The position numbers were made by a program, and so were the translations under genes. Source: Desulfonatronospira thiodismutans ASO3-1 (lineage in GTDB: Bacteria > Desulfobacterota > Desulfovibrionia > Desulfovibrionales > Desulfonatronovibrionaceae). Taken from it: a stretch of 64,000 nucleotides of DNA. Under the pieces are notes generated by a model, which was given only the letters and a program-made list of their open reading frames with translations, did no database searches and was not told the origin of the DNA. The stretch is from contig NZ_ACJN02000002.1 in the NCBI RefSeq assembly GCF_000174435.1, positions 935,490 through 999,489 on the forward strand, written 5' to 3'. Positions 16,874 through 24,167 of the stretch are shown one piece after another. Every line of letters starts with the position of its first letter. Position 1 is the first letter of the stretch.

Positions 16874-17143
16874 CGGTCTGCGGCCTTGCTGTCCGGATGA
16901 AAACAAGTTTTCCCCTTTTATTGCCGGCACCACCTTCCTGCTCTTCACCCTCTTTTTAGTTTCCGCCCGCAATGCCGGTTTTTTCAGGCTGGAACCGCTA
17001 AAATGCACCCTTGATGACGTGACTATGCATTTACAGTTATTGATGTGCTGATTTTTTGATTGTCACACAACCCGATCTGGATTAAACAGCCTTTCTCTTC
17101 AGGTTTTTTCCACCGCTAAACCAAAATCATGCGAGGGCTAACA

Positions 17144-18688
17144 ATGGATACCACCCATTTAGTTGACCAGATTGCCAATCTGCAGATGCTCAACCAGTTC
17201 TTTCTCTCCCTGTTTCTGCTTATTCCCATGGTCCTGGTGGCCAGGACGGCTGTTGCCGGAACACGCTATTCCCCGATACTTATCATTGTCGTTTTCGGCC
17301 TGACCATGGGTTATGTCCTGGTGGCCAGCGGGGTCAGCACCCCTGGGCTGCCGCAGTTTTCCCTCATCGATCTCATAAGCCGTACCACCATAGTGGCTCT
17401 GACGGTGTCGTTCTTCGTGGGCGGACAGGAGCTTCGAAAGATTTTGGGGGGGATCAAGCTCGAACCTGATGAAATGGTGACTCCCTCCAAGGAAGAGACT
17501 ATACTGGGTACCGGCAGAACTCAGCTTATCTTTATTGTCCGGGCCTTTTTCCTCCTGGTGGGCATAGAAGCCCTGTACAGGTTGATAGTGGGAATGGGAG
17601 CTGGAGATCTAAGCCGTTTTTACCCCATTATCGCCTATCTGGGCCTGGTGGGGGCTGTGATACTTATAGATCACAAGGCCCAGGTGACCAATAAAAGGCG
17701 CTACATCAAGATGGGTCTGGTGGAGATAGTCGCCATTCTGGGGATTCTTATCGGTTCCTATACCGTAGCCATGTGGATAGAGCCCCTGATAGCCCTGCCC
17801 CAGATATTCTTTTCCATGGTCATTGCAGCCGGTCTGGGAGCGCTCATGTATCGCTGGCAATTCGGGCCGACCATCAGGGCCCTTCTGTTTGCAGGCATTC
17901 CGGTGGTGCTGGCGGCCAACTTCATGATCGGAGGGTCGCGCATTGAAGAGGCCTTTGCCATTACCGGCATGAACGCGGTGTTGGCTTACGGGTTTTTCGG
18001 GCAGATGTTCTGGATGTTTGGAGGCATAGCCCTGCTCATGCTCTTCGGCAAGACCGACATGGCCAGGAACCTGGCCCCGGGCATGGCCGGCGGACTTTCC
18101 CACTCGGGTCTTACCGGTGCCTGTACCGCTGGAGATTTGGGCAAAACCGCGGCCTACCGCGCCCCCATCATGATCAATGTACCGTTTTTCGGGCATATAT
18201 TCGTCTTTTCCGTGCTGGCCATGAGCGCTCAAAAGGGCAGTCTCATGCTTTTGCCGTCCTTTATCATAGTTCTGGCGGGTGTTGTTCTTACGGTTCTCTC
18301 CATGAGGACCATGAAGAATGCCGGGGGTGAAGATGCAAAAGAGGTCAAGGGACTGATGCAGTTTTCTTTTGGCTGGCAGCTCTGTGCAGTTTTCGGGGGC
18401 TTTACTCTTCTCAGCTTAGCCAGCATGTCCCTGGATTTTACAGCCATGGCGGTTTCTTCGGGCATATCCCATTTCGGGCTGTTCGCAGCCACCCAGGGAG
18501 GCATGTTCGGTGAGGAGGCGTCCCTGATGATACCGTTTATCTTTTCCATGCCCTTCCTGGTGCATCCGCTGGTGTTTTTCATGTTCGGCAAGGCTATGGA
18601 AAAAGACGGGTCAATGCCCAGAAAACCGGTATATATTATAGCCCTGATAGGACTTCTAGGAATAATTTATTCCATGCTTGCGATATAG
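17144..18688 (+). CDS. Multi-pass membrane protein of unknown function
   Basis: 514 residues from the ATG at 17144, which has GAGGG 7 bases upstream (ATG 17129 is an in-frame alternative without a ribosome site). About 12-13 hydrophobic helices alternate with short loops, spread over the entire length, with no signal peptide-like cleavage site. A conserved-looking re-entrant-like segment GMAGGLSHSGLTGACTAGDL lies near residue 320 and is glycine/serine/threonine rich, as in some secondary transporters. I do not recognise the family. It lies 82 bases upstream of the ADH-kinase-regulator genes on the same strand, so it may share their regulation. It could be a transporter for an organic acid or alcohol-related compound; this is inference only. 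Confidence 0.75.
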   Translation: MDTTHLVDQIANLQMLNQFFLSLFLLIPMVLVARTAVAGTRYSPILIIVVFGLTMGYVLVASGVSTPGLPQFSLIDLISRTTIVALTVSFFVGGQELRKILGGIKLEPDEMVTPSKEETILGTGRTQLIFIVRAFFLLVGIEALYRLIVGMGAGDLSRFYPIIAYLGLVGAVILIDHKAQVTNKRRYIKMGLVEIVAILGILIGSYTVAMWIEPLIALPQIFFSMVIAAGLGALMYRWQFGPTIRALLFAGIPVVLAANFMIGGSRIEEAFAITGMNAVLAYGFFGQMFWMFGGIALLMLFGKTDMARNLAPGMAGGLSHSGLTGACTAGDLGKTAAYRAPIMINVPFFGHIFVFSVLAMSAQKGSLMLLPSFIIVLAGVVLTVLSMRTMKNAGGEDAKEVKGLMQFSFGWQLCAVFGGFTLLSLASMSLDFTAMAVSSGISHFGLFAATQGGMFGEEASLMIPFIFSMPFLVHPLVFFMFGKAMEKDGSMPRKPVYIIALIGLLGIIYSMLAI

Positions 18689-18770: not shown

Positions 18771-19922
18771 ATGTCTGAAAACAGAATCACAAAATTCGCC
18801 ATCCCGGAGATCATTTTCGGGCACGGCAGTCTGCGCTACGTGGCCCAGTGCGCCATGCGCCTGGGCGCTAAAAGGGCACTTCTGGTCACGGATGAGGGGC
18901 TCATACACTCGGGATGGGCCGGACATGTTCAGGAAATACTCAAGGACGACAATCTGGATTATATTCCTTTTGACCAGGTGGACTCCAACCCCAGGGACTA
19001 CCAGGTGCATGAGGGAGCAAAAATTTATGACCGGGAAAAGGCTGATGTCATAATATCCCTTGGCGGGGGCAGTCCCATGGATACGGCCAAGGGTATCGGC
19101 ACCATTGTGGGCAACGGCGGCAGGATAGGGGACTATGAGGGGGCCAACAAGATAATGCGGCCCCTTCCGCCCATGATATTTATACCCTCCAATGCAGGCA
19201 GCGGATCGGATATTTCCCAGTTCTGCATCATCACTGATGTGGAGCGCCAGGTAAAGATGTCCATCATCAGCCGCTCACTGGTGCCCAATGTGTCCATTAT
19301 AGACCCGGACCTGCTCATGACCAAGAGCGACGAGATGGTGGTGGCTTCGGCCGTGGACGCCCTGGCCCATGCCATCGAATCCTATGTCTCCCCTCTGGCC
19401 TCGCCATTCACCGAAAACCAGGCCATGAAGGCCATTGAGCTCATAGCCGCATACCTTCAGCCGGCCCTGGAGTCGCGAAGCTGCGAAGCCATGGAGCAGC
19501 TTTCCATAGCCAGCACTGCGGCGGGCATGTCCTTCAGCAATGCCGGCCTGGGCATAGGGCACGCCCTGGCCCATTCCTTAGGAGGAATCTTTGATACCCT
19601 GCACGGGCTGGTGCACCCCATAGTGCTGCCTTCGGTCATGCGCTACAACCTGCCTGCCTGTCCGGAAAAGATGTGCATTATCGGGCGCATCGTGCAGGGC
19701 TCCTGCACTACCTGTTCCAGCGACCAGGGGCAGGAGGGCATATCCAGGCTGGAAGAGCTCTTTGCAGGACTTGGTATTCCGGTACACCTGCGCGACATTG
19801 TCCCGGATGCATCCAGGCTGGAACAGATCTGCAAAATGGCGGTGCATGATGCCTGTATGCTGACCAATCCGCGCAAGGCCGGATGGGAAGATCTTTTTTC
19901 CATATGCCAGGAGGCCTGGTGA
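18771..19922 (+). CDS. Iron-containing (group III) alcohol dehydrogenase, regulatory-operon copy
   Basis: 383 residues. The NAD-binding loop is ISLGGGSPMDTAKGIG. Metal-ligand segments are DALAHAIESY and HALAHSLGGIFDTLHG, all complete. The family oxidises primary alcohols to aldehydes with NAD(P), or reduces aldehydes. About 380 residues is the normal length. Its stop codon overlaps the start of the histidine kinase gene (TGATG at 19920-19924), so the enzyme and the sensor are translationally coupled. It differs from the second ADH at 22874 in most loops and lacks that gene's strongly biased codon use. It may be a low-level enzyme or have a sensing role. Confidence 0.9.
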   Translation: MSENRITKFAIPEIIFGHGSLRYVAQCAMRLGAKRALLVTDEGLIHSGWAGHVQEILKDDNLDYIPFDQVDSNPRDYQVHEGAKIYDREKADVIISLGGGSPMDTAKGIGTIVGNGGRIGDYEGANKIMRPLPPMIFIPSNAGSGSDISQFCIITDVERQVKMSIISRSLVPNVSIIDPDLLMTKSDEMVVASAVDALAHAIESYVSPLASPFTENQAMKAIELIAAYLQPALESRSCEAMEQLSIASTAAGMSFSNAGLGIGHALAHSLGGIFDTLHGLVHPIVLPSVMRYNLPACPEKMCIIGRIVQGSCTTCSSDQGQEGISRLEELFAGLGIPVHLRDIVPDASRLEQICKMAVHDACMLTNPRKAGWEDLFSICQEAW

Positions 19923-21124
19923 TGCAGAAGACTCCTGATCTAAATGATCTTGTGGGCATCGAACACAGCAAACTGGGTTTTTTTCAGGAGCTGCGCCAGA
20001 AGATTGAAGAGCTCAAAGAAGCCAACAGAAAATCCGAGGAGCGCCGAAGAGAAATCGCAGCTATCCTGGACGGCATTACCGATGTCATGATGGTTCTTTC
20101 GGAAAATCTGCGCATAATTTCAGTCAACCATGTTTTTCATGAATTTTTTGACGAACCCCGGCCCGAAGGCAAATTCTGCTACCAGCTTTTTCGCGGCGAA
20201 GATTATCCCTGCCCGGAATGCCCGGCTTTCCGTTCCATGGCCACTGATTCCGTATGCCGGGATACAGCCATATTCAAGCTGGGAGGCCGCAACCTGCAGT
20301 TTGAAATGGTGGCTTCGCCCCTGAAAAATAAGGAATGGGAAGAAAACCGGGTTCTTATATTCAAGCGCGACGTGACCCTGGAAAAGGAGTACCAGGCCAA
20401 GTACTATCAGGTGGAAAAAATGGCCACCATAGGCATGCTGGCTGCTGGAGTGGCCCATGAAGTCAACAACCCCATGGCTGCCATAAACGGGTTCGCCGAA
20501 GGGCTGCGCCGGCGTATTCCGCGCATTGAAAAAAGCGTCGATCCTGAACTGGCCCAGGATTTCCGGGAATACACAGACATCATCCTCAAGGAATGCAAGC
20601 GCTGCCAGAAGATTATCCAGACTCTGCTGACCTTCAGTCGGCCCAAGCATTTCTCGTTTTCTCCCATCAATCTCAACCGGGTGGTAAACGAGACCCTGCG
20701 CCTGGTGGATCATAGCCTGCGCAAGCGTAAAGGGCTCAAGGTCAAACTGGATCTGCAGGACGGTCTGCCCCTGATCAATGCAGACGAGTCTCAGCTGAAA
20801 CAGGTAATACTGAACCTGCTGGTGAACGCCAAGGATGCCATCCAGGACAAGGGGCTGATCACCATCAAGACCTCGGCCTTTGAGCATGAAAACGAAGTCT
20901 GCCTGTGCGTGGAGGATGACGGCTGCGGCATTGATCCGGACAAGATGGATAAGCTGTTTGAGCCCTTTTTCACCACCAAGCCCGTGGGCAAAGGCATTGG
21001 TATAGGCCTGGCCTCCTGTTATAATATCGTCGAAAGTCACGGGGGAGAGATATCCGTGACCAGTGAGCCGGGCAAAGGTTCCAGGTTTACGGTATGTCTT
21101 CCTTTAAACCCCTCTATAGAGTGA
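19922..21124 (+). CDS. PAS-domain sensor histidine kinase (cytosolic)
   Basis: 400 residues from ATG 19922, with AGGAGG 7 bases upstream inside the preceding gene. A short coiled coil (about 20-45) leads into a PAS domain (about 45-160) that contains a cysteine cluster (CYQLF, then PCPECPAF and VCRD). The dimerisation/phosphotransfer helix carries H179 in GVAHEVNNP. The ATPase has N-box NLLVNAKDAI, G1 DDGCGI, F-box and G2 GKGIGIGLAS. No membrane segment, so it senses a cytosolic cue; the Cys cluster suggests redox or metal sensing but may only be structural. The next gene, two bases downstream, is its evident partner. Confidence 0.92.
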   Translation: MQKTPDLNDLVGIEHSKLGFFQELRQKIEELKEANRKSEERRREIAAILDGITDVMMVLSENLRIISVNHVFHEFFDEPRPEGKFCYQLFRGEDYPCPECPAFRSMATDSVCRDTAIFKLGGRNLQFEMVASPLKNKEWEENRVLIFKRDVTLEKEYQAKYYQVEKMATIGMLAAGVAHEVNNPMAAINGFAEGLRRRIPRIEKSVDPELAQDFREYTDIILKECKRCQKIIQTLLTFSRPKHFSFSPINLNRVVNETLRLVDHSLRKRKGLKVKLDLQDGLPLINADESQLKQVILNLLVNAKDAIQDKGLITIKTSAFEHENEVCLCVEDDGCGIDPDKMDKLFEPFFTTKPVGKGIGIGLASCYNIVESHGGEISVTSEPGKGSRFTVCLPLNPSIE

Positions 21125-21125
21125 T

Positions 21126-22475
21126 ATGACCAAGCAGTACTCAGTGCTGGTAGTGGATGATGAGCAGTCCATTCTGACCCTTTTCAAAAAGGAGTTCGCC
21201 ACACCGGAAAGAAGCATCTCCACTGCCTCCTCCGCCTCCCAGGCCCGTCAGCTAATCCGGAAGAACGTGTTTGATGTTGTCCTTTTAGATATCTGTCTGC
21301 CGGATGGTGACGGTCTGGATCTGTATACCGAGTTCAAGGAGCGTATGCAGGATGTGGAGATTATTCTTATCACCGGCCACGGCAATATCGATAATGCAGT
21401 CAGGGCCATGAAGCTGGGGGCTTATGACTATATCACCAAACCCTTCAATCTGGACAAGCTGGAACTGGTTATAGAAAGGGCCTGGCAGAGGGCCTGCATG
21501 CAGCGTGAAAACCGCAGTTACCGGCTTTACTCCGGCAACAACCGGACGCACAGGATGGTTGGGGCCTCTGAAAGCATAAAACACATCCGCTACCTCGTAG
21601 ACAAGGTCGCCCCCGCCGAGGTGCCGGTACTGCTTACCGGAGAAAGCGGGGTGGGCAAGGATGTGGCGGCCCAGGCCATTCATCACGGCAGTCAGCGTGC
21701 GGACAAGCCCTATATCGTAAAAAACTGCGCCTCCTTAGTGAAAGAGCTGGCCCGCACCGAGCTTTTCGGGCACGTCAAGGGTTCCTTTACCGGGGCCACT
21801 GAATCCAGCGATGGGCTTATGGCCTATGCCCACAAGGGCACTCTCTTCCTGGACGAAATAGGAGAACTGCCCCTGGAAGTCCAGGCGTCCCTGTTGAGGG
21901 TCCTGGAAAACAGGACATATCGCCGGGTGGGAGAAAAAGAAGAGCGCAGCATAGATGTCCGTTTTATTTTCGCCACAAGCCGCAACCTGTATACCGAGGT
22001 GGAGGAGGGCAGGTTTCAGGAAGCCCTTCTGCACCGCATAAACGTTTTTAATATCGAGACTCCTCCACTGCGGGACCGCCTGGAAGACATACCCCTGCTG
22101 GTGGAGCATTTTCTGTCCAGCCTGAATACTTCCATCACAGACTACCGCGTTACGGACAAGGCCATGAACTGCCTGATGAACTACTCCTGGCCCGGCAATG
22201 TGCGCGAGCTTCGAAACGTGCTGGAGCGCAGCATGATCCTGGCTGAACAGGGCAACATCACCGAAAGGTCCCTGCCCAGGGAACTGGTGGAAAAGACCCT
22301 GGACGCTCACGAGCAGGGAAGGCAGGAGGGTATCTTTTCCCTGCGCCTGGCTGAAAAAAACCATATATCCCGAGTTCTCAGCTACTTCCAGGGCAATCGC
22401 CAGCAGGCATCCAAGGCCATGGGGATAGGAAGGAAGACCCTTTATCGCAAGATGAAGGAATACCAGCTGGAGTAG
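21126..22475 (+). CDS. Sigma-54-dependent response regulator (NtrC family)
   Basis: 449 residues. The receiver is at 1-120 with D11/D12 and phospho-acceptor D55 in LLDICLPDGDG. The AAA+ activator domain is at about 145-385: Walker A GESGVGKD, sigma-54 contact loop GSFTGA (usually GAFTGA or ESFTGA), Walker B GTLFLDEIGEL, and the R-finger region. The C-terminal Fis-type helix-turn-helix at about 405-449 is QQASKAMGIGRKTLYRKMKEY. Such proteins bind upstream sites and remodel RNA polymerase-sigma54. A good sigma-54 promoter begins 296 bases after its stop, upstream of the second ADH. It is the obvious activator of that promoter (inference). Confidence 0.94.
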   Translation: MTKQYSVLVVDDEQSILTLFKKEFATPERSISTASSASQARQLIRKNVFDVVLLDICLPDGDGLDLYTEFKERMQDVEIILITGHGNIDNAVRAMKLGAYDYITKPFNLDKLELVIERAWQRACMQRENRSYRLYSGNNRTHRMVGASESIKHIRYLVDKVAPAEVPVLLTGESGVGKDVAAQAIHHGSQRADKPYIVKNCASLVKELARTELFGHVKGSFTGATESSDGLMAYAHKGTLFLDEIGELPLEVQASLLRVLENRTYRRVGEKEERSIDVRFIFATSRNLYTEVEEGRFQEALLHRINVFNIETPPLRDRLEDIPLLVEHFLSSLNTSITDYRVTDKAMNCLMNYSWPGNVRELRNVLERSMILAEQGNITERSLPRELVEKTLDAHEQGRQEGIFSLRLAEKNHISRVLSYFQGNRQQASKAMGIGRKTLYRKMKEYQLE

Positions 22476-22669
22476 CGTATGGGCTGAGCCCCTGATTCAA
22501 GGGCTGGTGCTGCCTCCGGCTTGTATTGGAATCAACGGGCGGTTCTTTCATAATATGTGACCTTGAAACTGTATCTTTTTGACCCAAAAGGCGGTTTTGG
22601 GCGTATCAAAAAATCACTAAAAATGAATGCTTTGAAATAACTGGTTTTTTTCCTGAGCCATTCCCTTTT

Positions 22670-22692
22670 ACAGGCTTTTCAGCGCTGCCTGT
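22670..22692. promoter_or_regulatory. Possible enhancer dyad upstream of the sigma-54 promoter
   Basis: ACAGGC (22670-22675) and GCCTGT (22687-22692) form a 6-bp inverted repeat with an 11-base spacer, about 90 bases upstream of the -24 element, a usual distance for NtrC-type activator sites. A second candidate is the direct repeat TTTGAAATAA at 22631-22640 and 22747-22756. Neither is proven; this is inference from position. Confidence 0.35.
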
Positions 22693-22770
22693 CCTGTCAC
22701 CGTCCTTCAAAAGAACCACTCTTCACAGGTTTATTCAGTTTAACATTTTGAAATAAATTGATTATTTTTG

Positions 22771-22785
22771 TGGCATGCATGTTGC
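22771..22785 (+). promoter_or_regulatory. Sigma-54 (-24/-12) promoter of the second alcohol dehydrogenase
   Basis: TGGCATGCATGTTGC has the invariant GG and GC separated by exactly 10 bases and a good match to the TGGCAC-N5-TTGC consensus. Transcription would start near 22796, giving a leader of about 78 bases before ATG 22874. An NtrC-family activator gene ends 295 bases upstream. Confidence 0.8.
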
Positions 22786-22873
22786 TGACATAAAGATCAA
22801 TAGTTGCTGTTTGAAGCAGGTGCAGCGTTTTTTATTTATTCAATTTATTTAACCCAAAAGGATGGTGATTGTT

Positions 22874-24055
22874 ATGGCAGTACGTGAACAGGTTTATGGT
22901 TTTTTTATCCCCAGTGTTACCCTCATCGGCCTGGGCGCTCACAAGGAAGTACCCGCAAAGATAAAGGCCCTGGGCGGCAACAAGCCCCTGGTAGTAGCAG
23001 ACAAGGGCATCACCGCCGCAGGCATCACCGAGCAGATCACAAGCCTGCTCAAAGCCGAAGGCATGGACTGCGTCGTTTACGACGATACCATTCCCAACCC
23101 CACTGACAACAACGTCCACGACGGTGTTGAAGTCTTCAAGAAAAACAATTGCGACAGCGTCATCACCCTGGGCGGCGGAAGCTCCCATGACTGCGGAAAA
23201 GGCATCGGCCTTGTGGTCTCCAACGGCGGCAAGATCCATGATTTCGAGGGCATTGACAAGTCCGAAAAGCCCTTTCTGCCCTACGTTGCTGTAAATACCA
23301 CAGCAGGGACCGCTTCCGAGATGACCAGGTTCTGCATCATCACCGACACTTCCCGCAAGGTGAAGATGGCCATAGTCGACTGGCGCTGCACCCCCGGCGT
23401 AGCAGTTGACGACCCCCTGCTCATGATGGGCATGCCCCCGGCACTGACCGCAGCCACCGGCATGGACGCCCTGACCCACGCAGTGGAGGCCTACGTATCC
23501 CAGGCAGCAACCCCCATGACCGATGCCTGCGCCGAAAAGGCCATCAGCCTCATATTCCAGTACCTGCGCCCTGCAGTGGCCAACGGCCAGGACGTAGACG
23601 CCCGCGAAGGCATGTGCTACGCTCAATATCTGGCAGGTATGGCTTTCAACAACGCAAGCCTGGGTCACGTACATGCCATGGCTCATCAGCTGGGCGGCTT
23701 CTATGACCTGCCCCACGGCGAGTGCAATGCTATCCTGCTGCCCCATGTCGAACAGTTCAACCTCATTGCCAAGATGGACCGCTTCATCACCATGGCCGAA
23801 CTCATGGGCGAAAACATCGAAGGCCTGGGACGGCGTGAAGCCGCTGAAAAGGCCCTGGAAGGCATCAGAAAGCTGTCCAAGGACGTAGGCATTCCCTCTG
23901 GTCTCATCGAGCTGGGCAAGCGCTACGGCAAAGATGTCAAGAAAGAGGACATCAAGACCATGACCGCCAACGCTCAGAAAGACGCCTGCGGATTCACCAA
24001 TCCCCGCTGCCCCACTGACAAGGATGTGGAAGCGATTTTCGAGGCCGCTCTGTAA
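22874..24055 (+). CDS. adh: Iron-containing alcohol dehydrogenase (main, likely highly expressed)
   Basis: 393 residues from ATG 22874 (MAVREQVYGFFIPSVTLIG); in-frame ATG 22862 lies too close to AAAGGA. NAD loop TLGGGSSHDCGKGIG; metal ligands in DALTHAVEAY and HAMAHQLGGFYDLPHG. Codon use is strikingly biased towards C-ending codons compared with its neighbours, which usually marks very high expression. It stands behind a sigma-54 promoter and is closed by its own terminator, so it is monocistronic. Close relatives next to hdr-flx genes in Desulfovibrio oxidise ethanol to acetaldehyde with NAD. The hdr-flx operon starts about 190 bases downstream. Confidence 0.93.
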   Translation: MAVREQVYGFFIPSVTLIGLGAHKEVPAKIKALGGNKPLVVADKGITAAGITEQITSLLKAEGMDCVVYDDTIPNPTDNNVHDGVEVFKKNNCDSVITLGGGSSHDCGKGIGLVVSNGGKIHDFEGIDKSEKPFLPYVAVNTTAGTASEMTRFCIITDTSRKVKMAIVDWRCTPGVAVDDPLLMMGMPPALTAATGMDALTHAVEAYVSQAATPMTDACAEKAISLIFQYLRPAVANGQDVDAREGMCYAQYLAGMAFNNASLGHVHAMAHQLGGFYDLPHGECNAILLPHVEQFNLIAKMDRFITMAELMGENIEGLGRREAAEKALEGIRKLSKDVGIPSGLIELGKRYGKDVKKEDIKTMTANAQKDACGFTNPRCPTDKDVEAIFEAAL

Positions 24056-24072
24056 TAACCCCTTGACCTGTT

Positions 24073-24113
24073 CCAGGCAGTCCGGTCCCTGCGGCCGGCT
24101 GCCTGGATTTTTT
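24073..24113 (+). terminator. Rho-independent terminator after adh
   Basis: CCAGGCAG (24073-24080) pairs with CTGCCTGG (24099-24106), with a smaller CCGG/CCGG pairing inside, followed by ATTTTTTG. It separates adh from the hdr-flx operon. Confidence 0.85.
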
Positions 24114-24138
24114 GTGAACTTGCGTGGTTTTGTGAAGC

Positions 24139-24167
24139 TTTACACAAGGCAGGGCAGTCTGTATATT
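24139..24167 (+). promoter_or_regulatory. Probable sigma-70 promoter of the hdr-flx operon
   Basis: TTTACA (24139-24144), 17-base spacer, TATATT (24162-24167). It lies just after the adh terminator and 78 bases before the hdrC start. It would give the operon control separate from the sigma-54 promoter of adh. Confidence 0.55.

Follow-up and report, generated by a model that had tools for sequence, protein, structure and literature searches.

The region upstream of adh in the sulfate reducer Desulfonatronospira thiodismutans ASO3-1 raises the question of what activates this gene, and whether the adjacent hdr-flx genes share its control. We addressed it in a window of 64,000 nucleotides (the whole stretch of DNA analysed; coordinates are positions in it, on the plus strand unless stated otherwise). 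The proposed target gene, adh (22874..24055; Pfam), encodes an iron-containing alcohol dehydrogenase; its start is placed at the ATG at 22874, since locus L003 has a stop within the longer reading frame. It is 96% identical to that of Desulfonatronospira sp. CSSed11_143, and is followed by hdrCBA-flx and then by an aldehyde:ferredoxin oxidoreductase-like gene. The strong codon bias ascribed to it in a preliminary description of this DNA is borne out, Nc being 35.1 vs 39-49, the strongest bias of 13 neighbouring genes. With high probability, the best explanation of the data presented here is a sigma-54-dependent control region, in which a pair of upstream sites (UAS1 and UAS2) would serve an NtrC-type regulator, and the control of adh is probably alcohol-responsive. 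Alcohol oxidation supplies both sulfate reduction and syntrophy.

The preliminary description had also placed a strong sigma-54 promoter with exact GG-N10-GC spacing in front of adh, and both points hold. The predicted -24/-12 element, near-perfect for sigma-54, is TGGCATGCATGTTGCT (22771..22786, with +1 expected near 22797); the 15-mer TGGCATGCATGTTGC at 22771-22785 has the GG-N10-GC core, conforms to the consensus TGGCAYR-N4-TTGC, and occurs only once in the whole 4.1-Mb genome. The pattern TGGCATGN4TTGCT has one exact match in the 64-kb window and, with two mismatches, 9 matches vs 8.95 by chance; the pattern alone thus says little once mismatches are allowed, and the comparison between genomes decides. 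The element is present in all four Desulfonatronospira copies, with 81% conservation within the genus, and is kept in 28 of 31 order-level adh loci, a count that includes the four genus members. It lies about 90-110 bp upstream of adh in approximately 100 of 110 loci of Desulfovibrionales and Desulfobulbales, the distance to the adh start codon being nearly constant across loci. The genome also encodes rpoN (TIGR02395, 457.6 bits). Judged by this conservation, TGGCATGCATGTTGCT is very probably a genuine sigma-54 promoter. Loci L048 and L053 carry a tandem adh pair with one sigma-54 promoter per copy. In a further group of loci, including L063, L068, L102 and others of Desulfobulbales, the adh 5' leader contains the palindrome TTTGGATCCAAA just past the predicted start (about 20 loci vs at most 4 in shuffles); it is absent in the window.

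Comparison between genomes likewise brings out the other predicted elements of the region, namely the site pairs with their spacing, the placement of an IHF-like motif and the link to a regulator. To find candidate enhancers, spaced word pairs were counted in 84 non-redundant adh upstream regions, Desulfonatronospira being left out. The top pair, GTCA-N3-TGAC, was found in 39 of the 84 regions vs 0-1 in shuffles, and the refined matrix is a 17-bp palindrome, TGGGTCA-WWW-TGACCCA, the sites of which lie some 195 and 163 bp upstream of the -24 box, joined in some loci by a third near -62. The spacing within a pair is 31-32 bp, or three helical turns, in 80 of 94 pairs across loci. Paired palindromes so spaced, 140-230 bp upstream and with the regulator co-present, have the character of enhancer-type UAS. 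As an in-sample, descriptive figure that is not independent, 98.8% of the training loci score above the shuffled 99th percentile.

Applied to the window, the matrix built without the genus picks out UAS1, TGTATCTTTTTGACCCA (22570..22586), as the best site in all 64 kb, with a score of 16.1 vs 13.8-14.3 in shuffled windows; its centre is about 193 bp upstream of the -24 box. The second candidate, the degenerate UAS2, CGTATCAAAAAATCACT (22602..22618), is 32 bp from UAS1 and fits the general motif poorly, scoring just 4.3 in the window and 8.1 in locus L004. UAS1 and UAS2 are each 94% conserved within the genus vs 45-60% for their surroundings. We regard the palindrome pair at 22570-22618 as the conserved enhancer and the predicted docking sites of the regulator, an assignment that shares the high probability of the explanation as a whole. 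A search of the genome for a broader UAS/sigma-54 regulon gave ten strand matches at eight places, of which only the one at adh is followed by a sigma-54 promoter. A strict form of the UAS pattern proved too strict to be diagnostic: it matched 16 times in 297 genomes of the order, three of these matches being before adh, vs 9 times when reversed as a control.

Both sites lie upstream of, and outside, the interval 22631-22873 to which the preliminary description had confined the control region. It had instead proposed as an activator site the dyad ACAGGC-N11-GCCTGT at 22670..22692, to which no strand is assigned. The dyad does exist there: its 6-bp arms are perfect, its distance to the promoter is plausible, the exact sequence occurs once in the window, and it is intact in three of the four genus members. 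The fourth, L003, lacks the dyad yet retains the promoter, and conservation of the dyad within the genus (46%) is that of the neighbouring sequence (45%). At two mismatches it is found 7 times vs 3.4 expected, a near-chance count reached by 6 of 100 shuffles; it is absent outside the genus, and in other adh loci its enrichment is no better than in shuffles. The UAS pair accounts for all loci, and a role of the dyad as the activator site is very improbable; as an enhancer it was rejected, given its background-level conservation and its absence outside the genus.

The regulator that would bind the enhancer pair is encoded immediately upstream. The NtrC-type gene ends at 22475, as had been stated, and its open reading frame (21126..22475; Pfam) encodes a response regulator with a phospho-Asp receiver, a GSFTGA loop and a Fis-type HTH. 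An alignment of 47 sequences (the window and orthologs) shows the receiver aspartate retained, a loop of the form G(A/S/T)FTGA and an HTH core that reads RKTLYRK or nearly so, the HTH being conserved across orders; the contig of locus L107 has unresolved bases across the HTH. An initial match ended at residue 388, which raised the suspicion that the D. vulgaris lineage had exchanged its DNA-binding domain; this was ruled out, the HTH being intact and only the linker altered. The Nitratidesulfovibrio-type regulators L134 and L135 have a Gly/Ala-rich linker insertion ahead of the DNA-binding domain.

Across 63 genomes the occurrence of the regulator was compared with that of the adh promoter plus UAS. 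The regulator is present in 53 of the 55 genomes whose adh has both elements and absent in seven of the eight whose adh has neither (53/2/1/7; Fisher p 5e-7, uncorrected for kinship). In the eighth, a contig end cuts off the upstream region of a second adh; in the MAGs G312 and G322 the promoter is present and the regulator was not detected. This co-occurrence supports the earlier suggestion that the 21126-22475 protein is a likely activator, and the sigma-54 promoter of adh is most likely activated by it. It also bears on the improbable alternative that the palindrome is bound by another protein while the NtrC-type regulator binds elsewhere, since UAS presence tracks regulator presence across genomes. 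The HTH sequence RKTLYRK, which is common among NtrC-family proteins, is for that reason not diagnostic and leaves room for such an alternative.

The published work on D. vulgaris bears on the same point. There DVU2394, a two-component regulator with the loop GSFTGA (PMC4641369), targets DVU2405-2397 (adh-hdr-flx) by DAP-chip (PMC3333781). The regulator described here has the receiver phospho-Asp, AAA+ loop and Fis HTH of the DVU2394 type, and orthology is traced via Nitratidesulfovibrio L134 and L135, aligned throughout; the regulator-adh system of the window belongs to the known DVU2394-adh system, with an orthologous GSFTGA regulator, the same adh target and sigma-54 control in D. vulgaris Hildenborough. 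In the DAP-chip report the site of DVU2394 is termed a direct repeat, given only for two D. vulgaris strains (PMC3333781), in contrast to the palindrome pair found here, a difference that would favour separate sites for the palindrome and the regulator. The Nitratidesulfovibrio upstream regions, however, contain two degenerate copies of the UAS motif 32 bp apart (TGTGGCATTTCGACCCA and GTGGCCCATTCTGTCCC), which can be read as a direct repeat, and the published repeat could be these copies. The systems differ further in that a terminator lies between adh and hdr here, unlike in D. vulgaris, and in that the regulator genes of the Nitratidesulfovibrio-type loci L112, L134 and L135 follow flx or stand apart from adh, whereas here they are upstream of adh. 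With respect to the literature examined, the enhancer pair appears new, as do the rule on its spacing and its distribution over two orders.

Between the enhancer pair and the promoter, the preliminary description had noted a direct repeat, TTTGAAATAA, at 22631 and 22747. The repeat is real and conserved, its copies being 116 bp apart, but it does not hold as an activator site, as it belongs to an IHF-like motif. After masking of the enhancer, YAACNNNYTGWAATW is the next enriched motif in the 84 non-redundant loci, with its centre 23 bp upstream of the -24 box in 62 of them; in many, another copy lies further upstream at a distance of 107-109 or 116-118 bp. In the window the motif is TTTAACATTTTGAAATAAA (22739..22757, score 16.9), which contains the second TTTGAAATAA; the weaker, degenerate first copy, ATGAATGCTTTGAAATAAC (22623..22641), is 116 bp from it. 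The register of YAACNNNYTGWAATW agrees with the IHF consensus YAANNNNTTGATW, from which the window copy departs by one mismatch; the exact consensus is found in 11 of 84 loci vs 1.3 expected, a moderate fit. These agreements point to a candidate IHF site and are not proof of one.

Alternatively, the motif might be where the alpha subunit of the polymerase, or some other activator, makes contact, a possibility that we doubt but take seriously. Its placement is very tight (the 62 of 84 loci fall in one 10-bp bin), its specificity (TAAC...) exceeds that of the IHF consensus, and of the four HU/IHF-type proteins encoded in the genome one resembles IHF beta most and another IHF alpha, all four scoring below curated cut-offs. 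Its agreement in register with the consensus and the upstream second copy, at gaps differing by about one helical turn, speak for an IHF site, as does the example of the orp promoters of D. vulgaris, where palindromic activator sites, IHF sites and a sigma-54 promoter follow one another in the sequence proposed for the window (enhancer protein DVU2106, IHF; PMC3897727). IHF works at these promoters, with sites near -43 and -79, and the candidate site described here is likewise placed about 43 bp ahead of the start, although the similarly placed orp1 IHF1 was dispensable, and the orp system differs in its unrelated one-component regulator, other palindrome and divergent operons (PMC3897727).

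Upstream of the regulator gene lie two candidates for its sensory partners. A cytoplasmic PAS histidine kinase with PAS, HisKA and HATPase domains (19922..21124) is the probable cognate kinase; the frame is open from 19883, its likely start codon, an ATG, overlaps the stop codon of the preceding gene, and no transmembrane segment was found in the protein. The preceding gene (18771..19922) encodes a paralogous iron-containing alcohol dehydrogenase that retains its iron ligands and is a probable partner in the sensor module. Its best NCBIfam match is ErcA (NF041833) at 409 bits, under the curated cut-off of 550, and we therefore call it ErcA-like only; its counterpart in D. vulgaris is DVU2396. 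The order ercA-HK-RR is conserved and adjoins adh in many loci, and an ErcA-like gene and a kinase also adjoin the regulator in L112, L134 and L135. Likewise, in Pseudomonas aeruginosa an iron-containing alcohol dehydrogenase adjoins a histidine kinase in ErcA/ErcS (PA1991/PA1992), which has a regulatory role in ethanol use (PMC12997753); unlike there, the window has a plain soluble PAS kinase with an NtrC-type regulator, and a sub-cut-off ErcA score. A 519-aa membrane protein with many hydrophobic segments, without a Pfam or NCBIfam match, is encoded at 17129-18688; only L043 and L044, the closest relatives, also have its gene next to the module.

In the mechanism that we propose, for which binding itself, the signal and the roles of IHF and Rex are inferred, the ErcA-like dehydrogenase and the soluble PAS kinase would probably inform the NtrC-type regulator about alcohol, aldehyde or redox state. 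The phosphorylated regulator would bind both palindromes (22570-22618), which lie on one face of the helix at a spacing of 32 bp, and then oligomerise, while an IHF/HU-type protein would bend the DNA at TAACNNNNTGAAATA just upstream of the promoter. The bend would let the regulator touch the sigma-54 polymerase at 22771-22786 and open it, with transcription starting near 22797. More tentatively, and with a somewhat less than even prospect of being right, the iron-ligand-intact paralog, PAS kinase and NtrC-type regulator may form an undescribed alcohol-sensing module that acts via paired GGGTCA-N3-TGACCC in two orders, the direct repeat of D. vulgaris being a degenerate form.

Many sulfate reducers share the promoter-UAS layout and retain the matching regulator gene with it, and mutations in the genes of this regulator are recurrent in D. 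vulgaris evolution experiments (PMC8319347, PMC7439460). An enhancer pair with strict spacing is a directly testable sequence, and it allows target prediction in uncultured sulfate reducers, where the published D. vulgaris motif is reportedly not found.

Finally, the preliminary description had suggested that adh and hdr-flx are regulated separately, which is plausible within the genus and does not hold in general. An intrinsic terminator with a strong hairpin and T run (24072..24113; -29.1 kcal/mol, z -3.9) follows adh, and its stem is maintained by compensatory changes in L003, L004 and L044. Beyond it, a promoter scan found a sigma-70 promoter of hdrC, TTTACA-N17-TATATT, at 24139-24167, overlapped over its -35 by a Rex-like operator, TTGTGAAGCTTTACACAA (24130-24147; 24130..24167 for the two together). 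The operator matches 13 of the 14 positions of the Rex consensus TTGTGAAN4TTCACAA, with 12 in L003 and 11 in L004; it is conserved only within Desulfonatronospira, a search in other genera having found none, and the genome encodes a Rex-type protein (PF06971 match). Because the terminator is conserved, and within the genus is joined by the sigma-70 promoter and the Rex-like operator, separate control of hdr-flx is plausible in Desulfonatronospira and one neighbour: most adh RNA would end at the terminator, and hdr-flx would in this genus be transcribed from a separate sigma-70 promoter, which Rex probably represses at low NADH. In D. vulgaris the adh-hdr genes are described as one operon (PMC3333781), and 20 of the 29 adh-hdr gaps examined are without such a terminator, so that elsewhere transcripts from the sigma-54 promoter likely read through as a rule.
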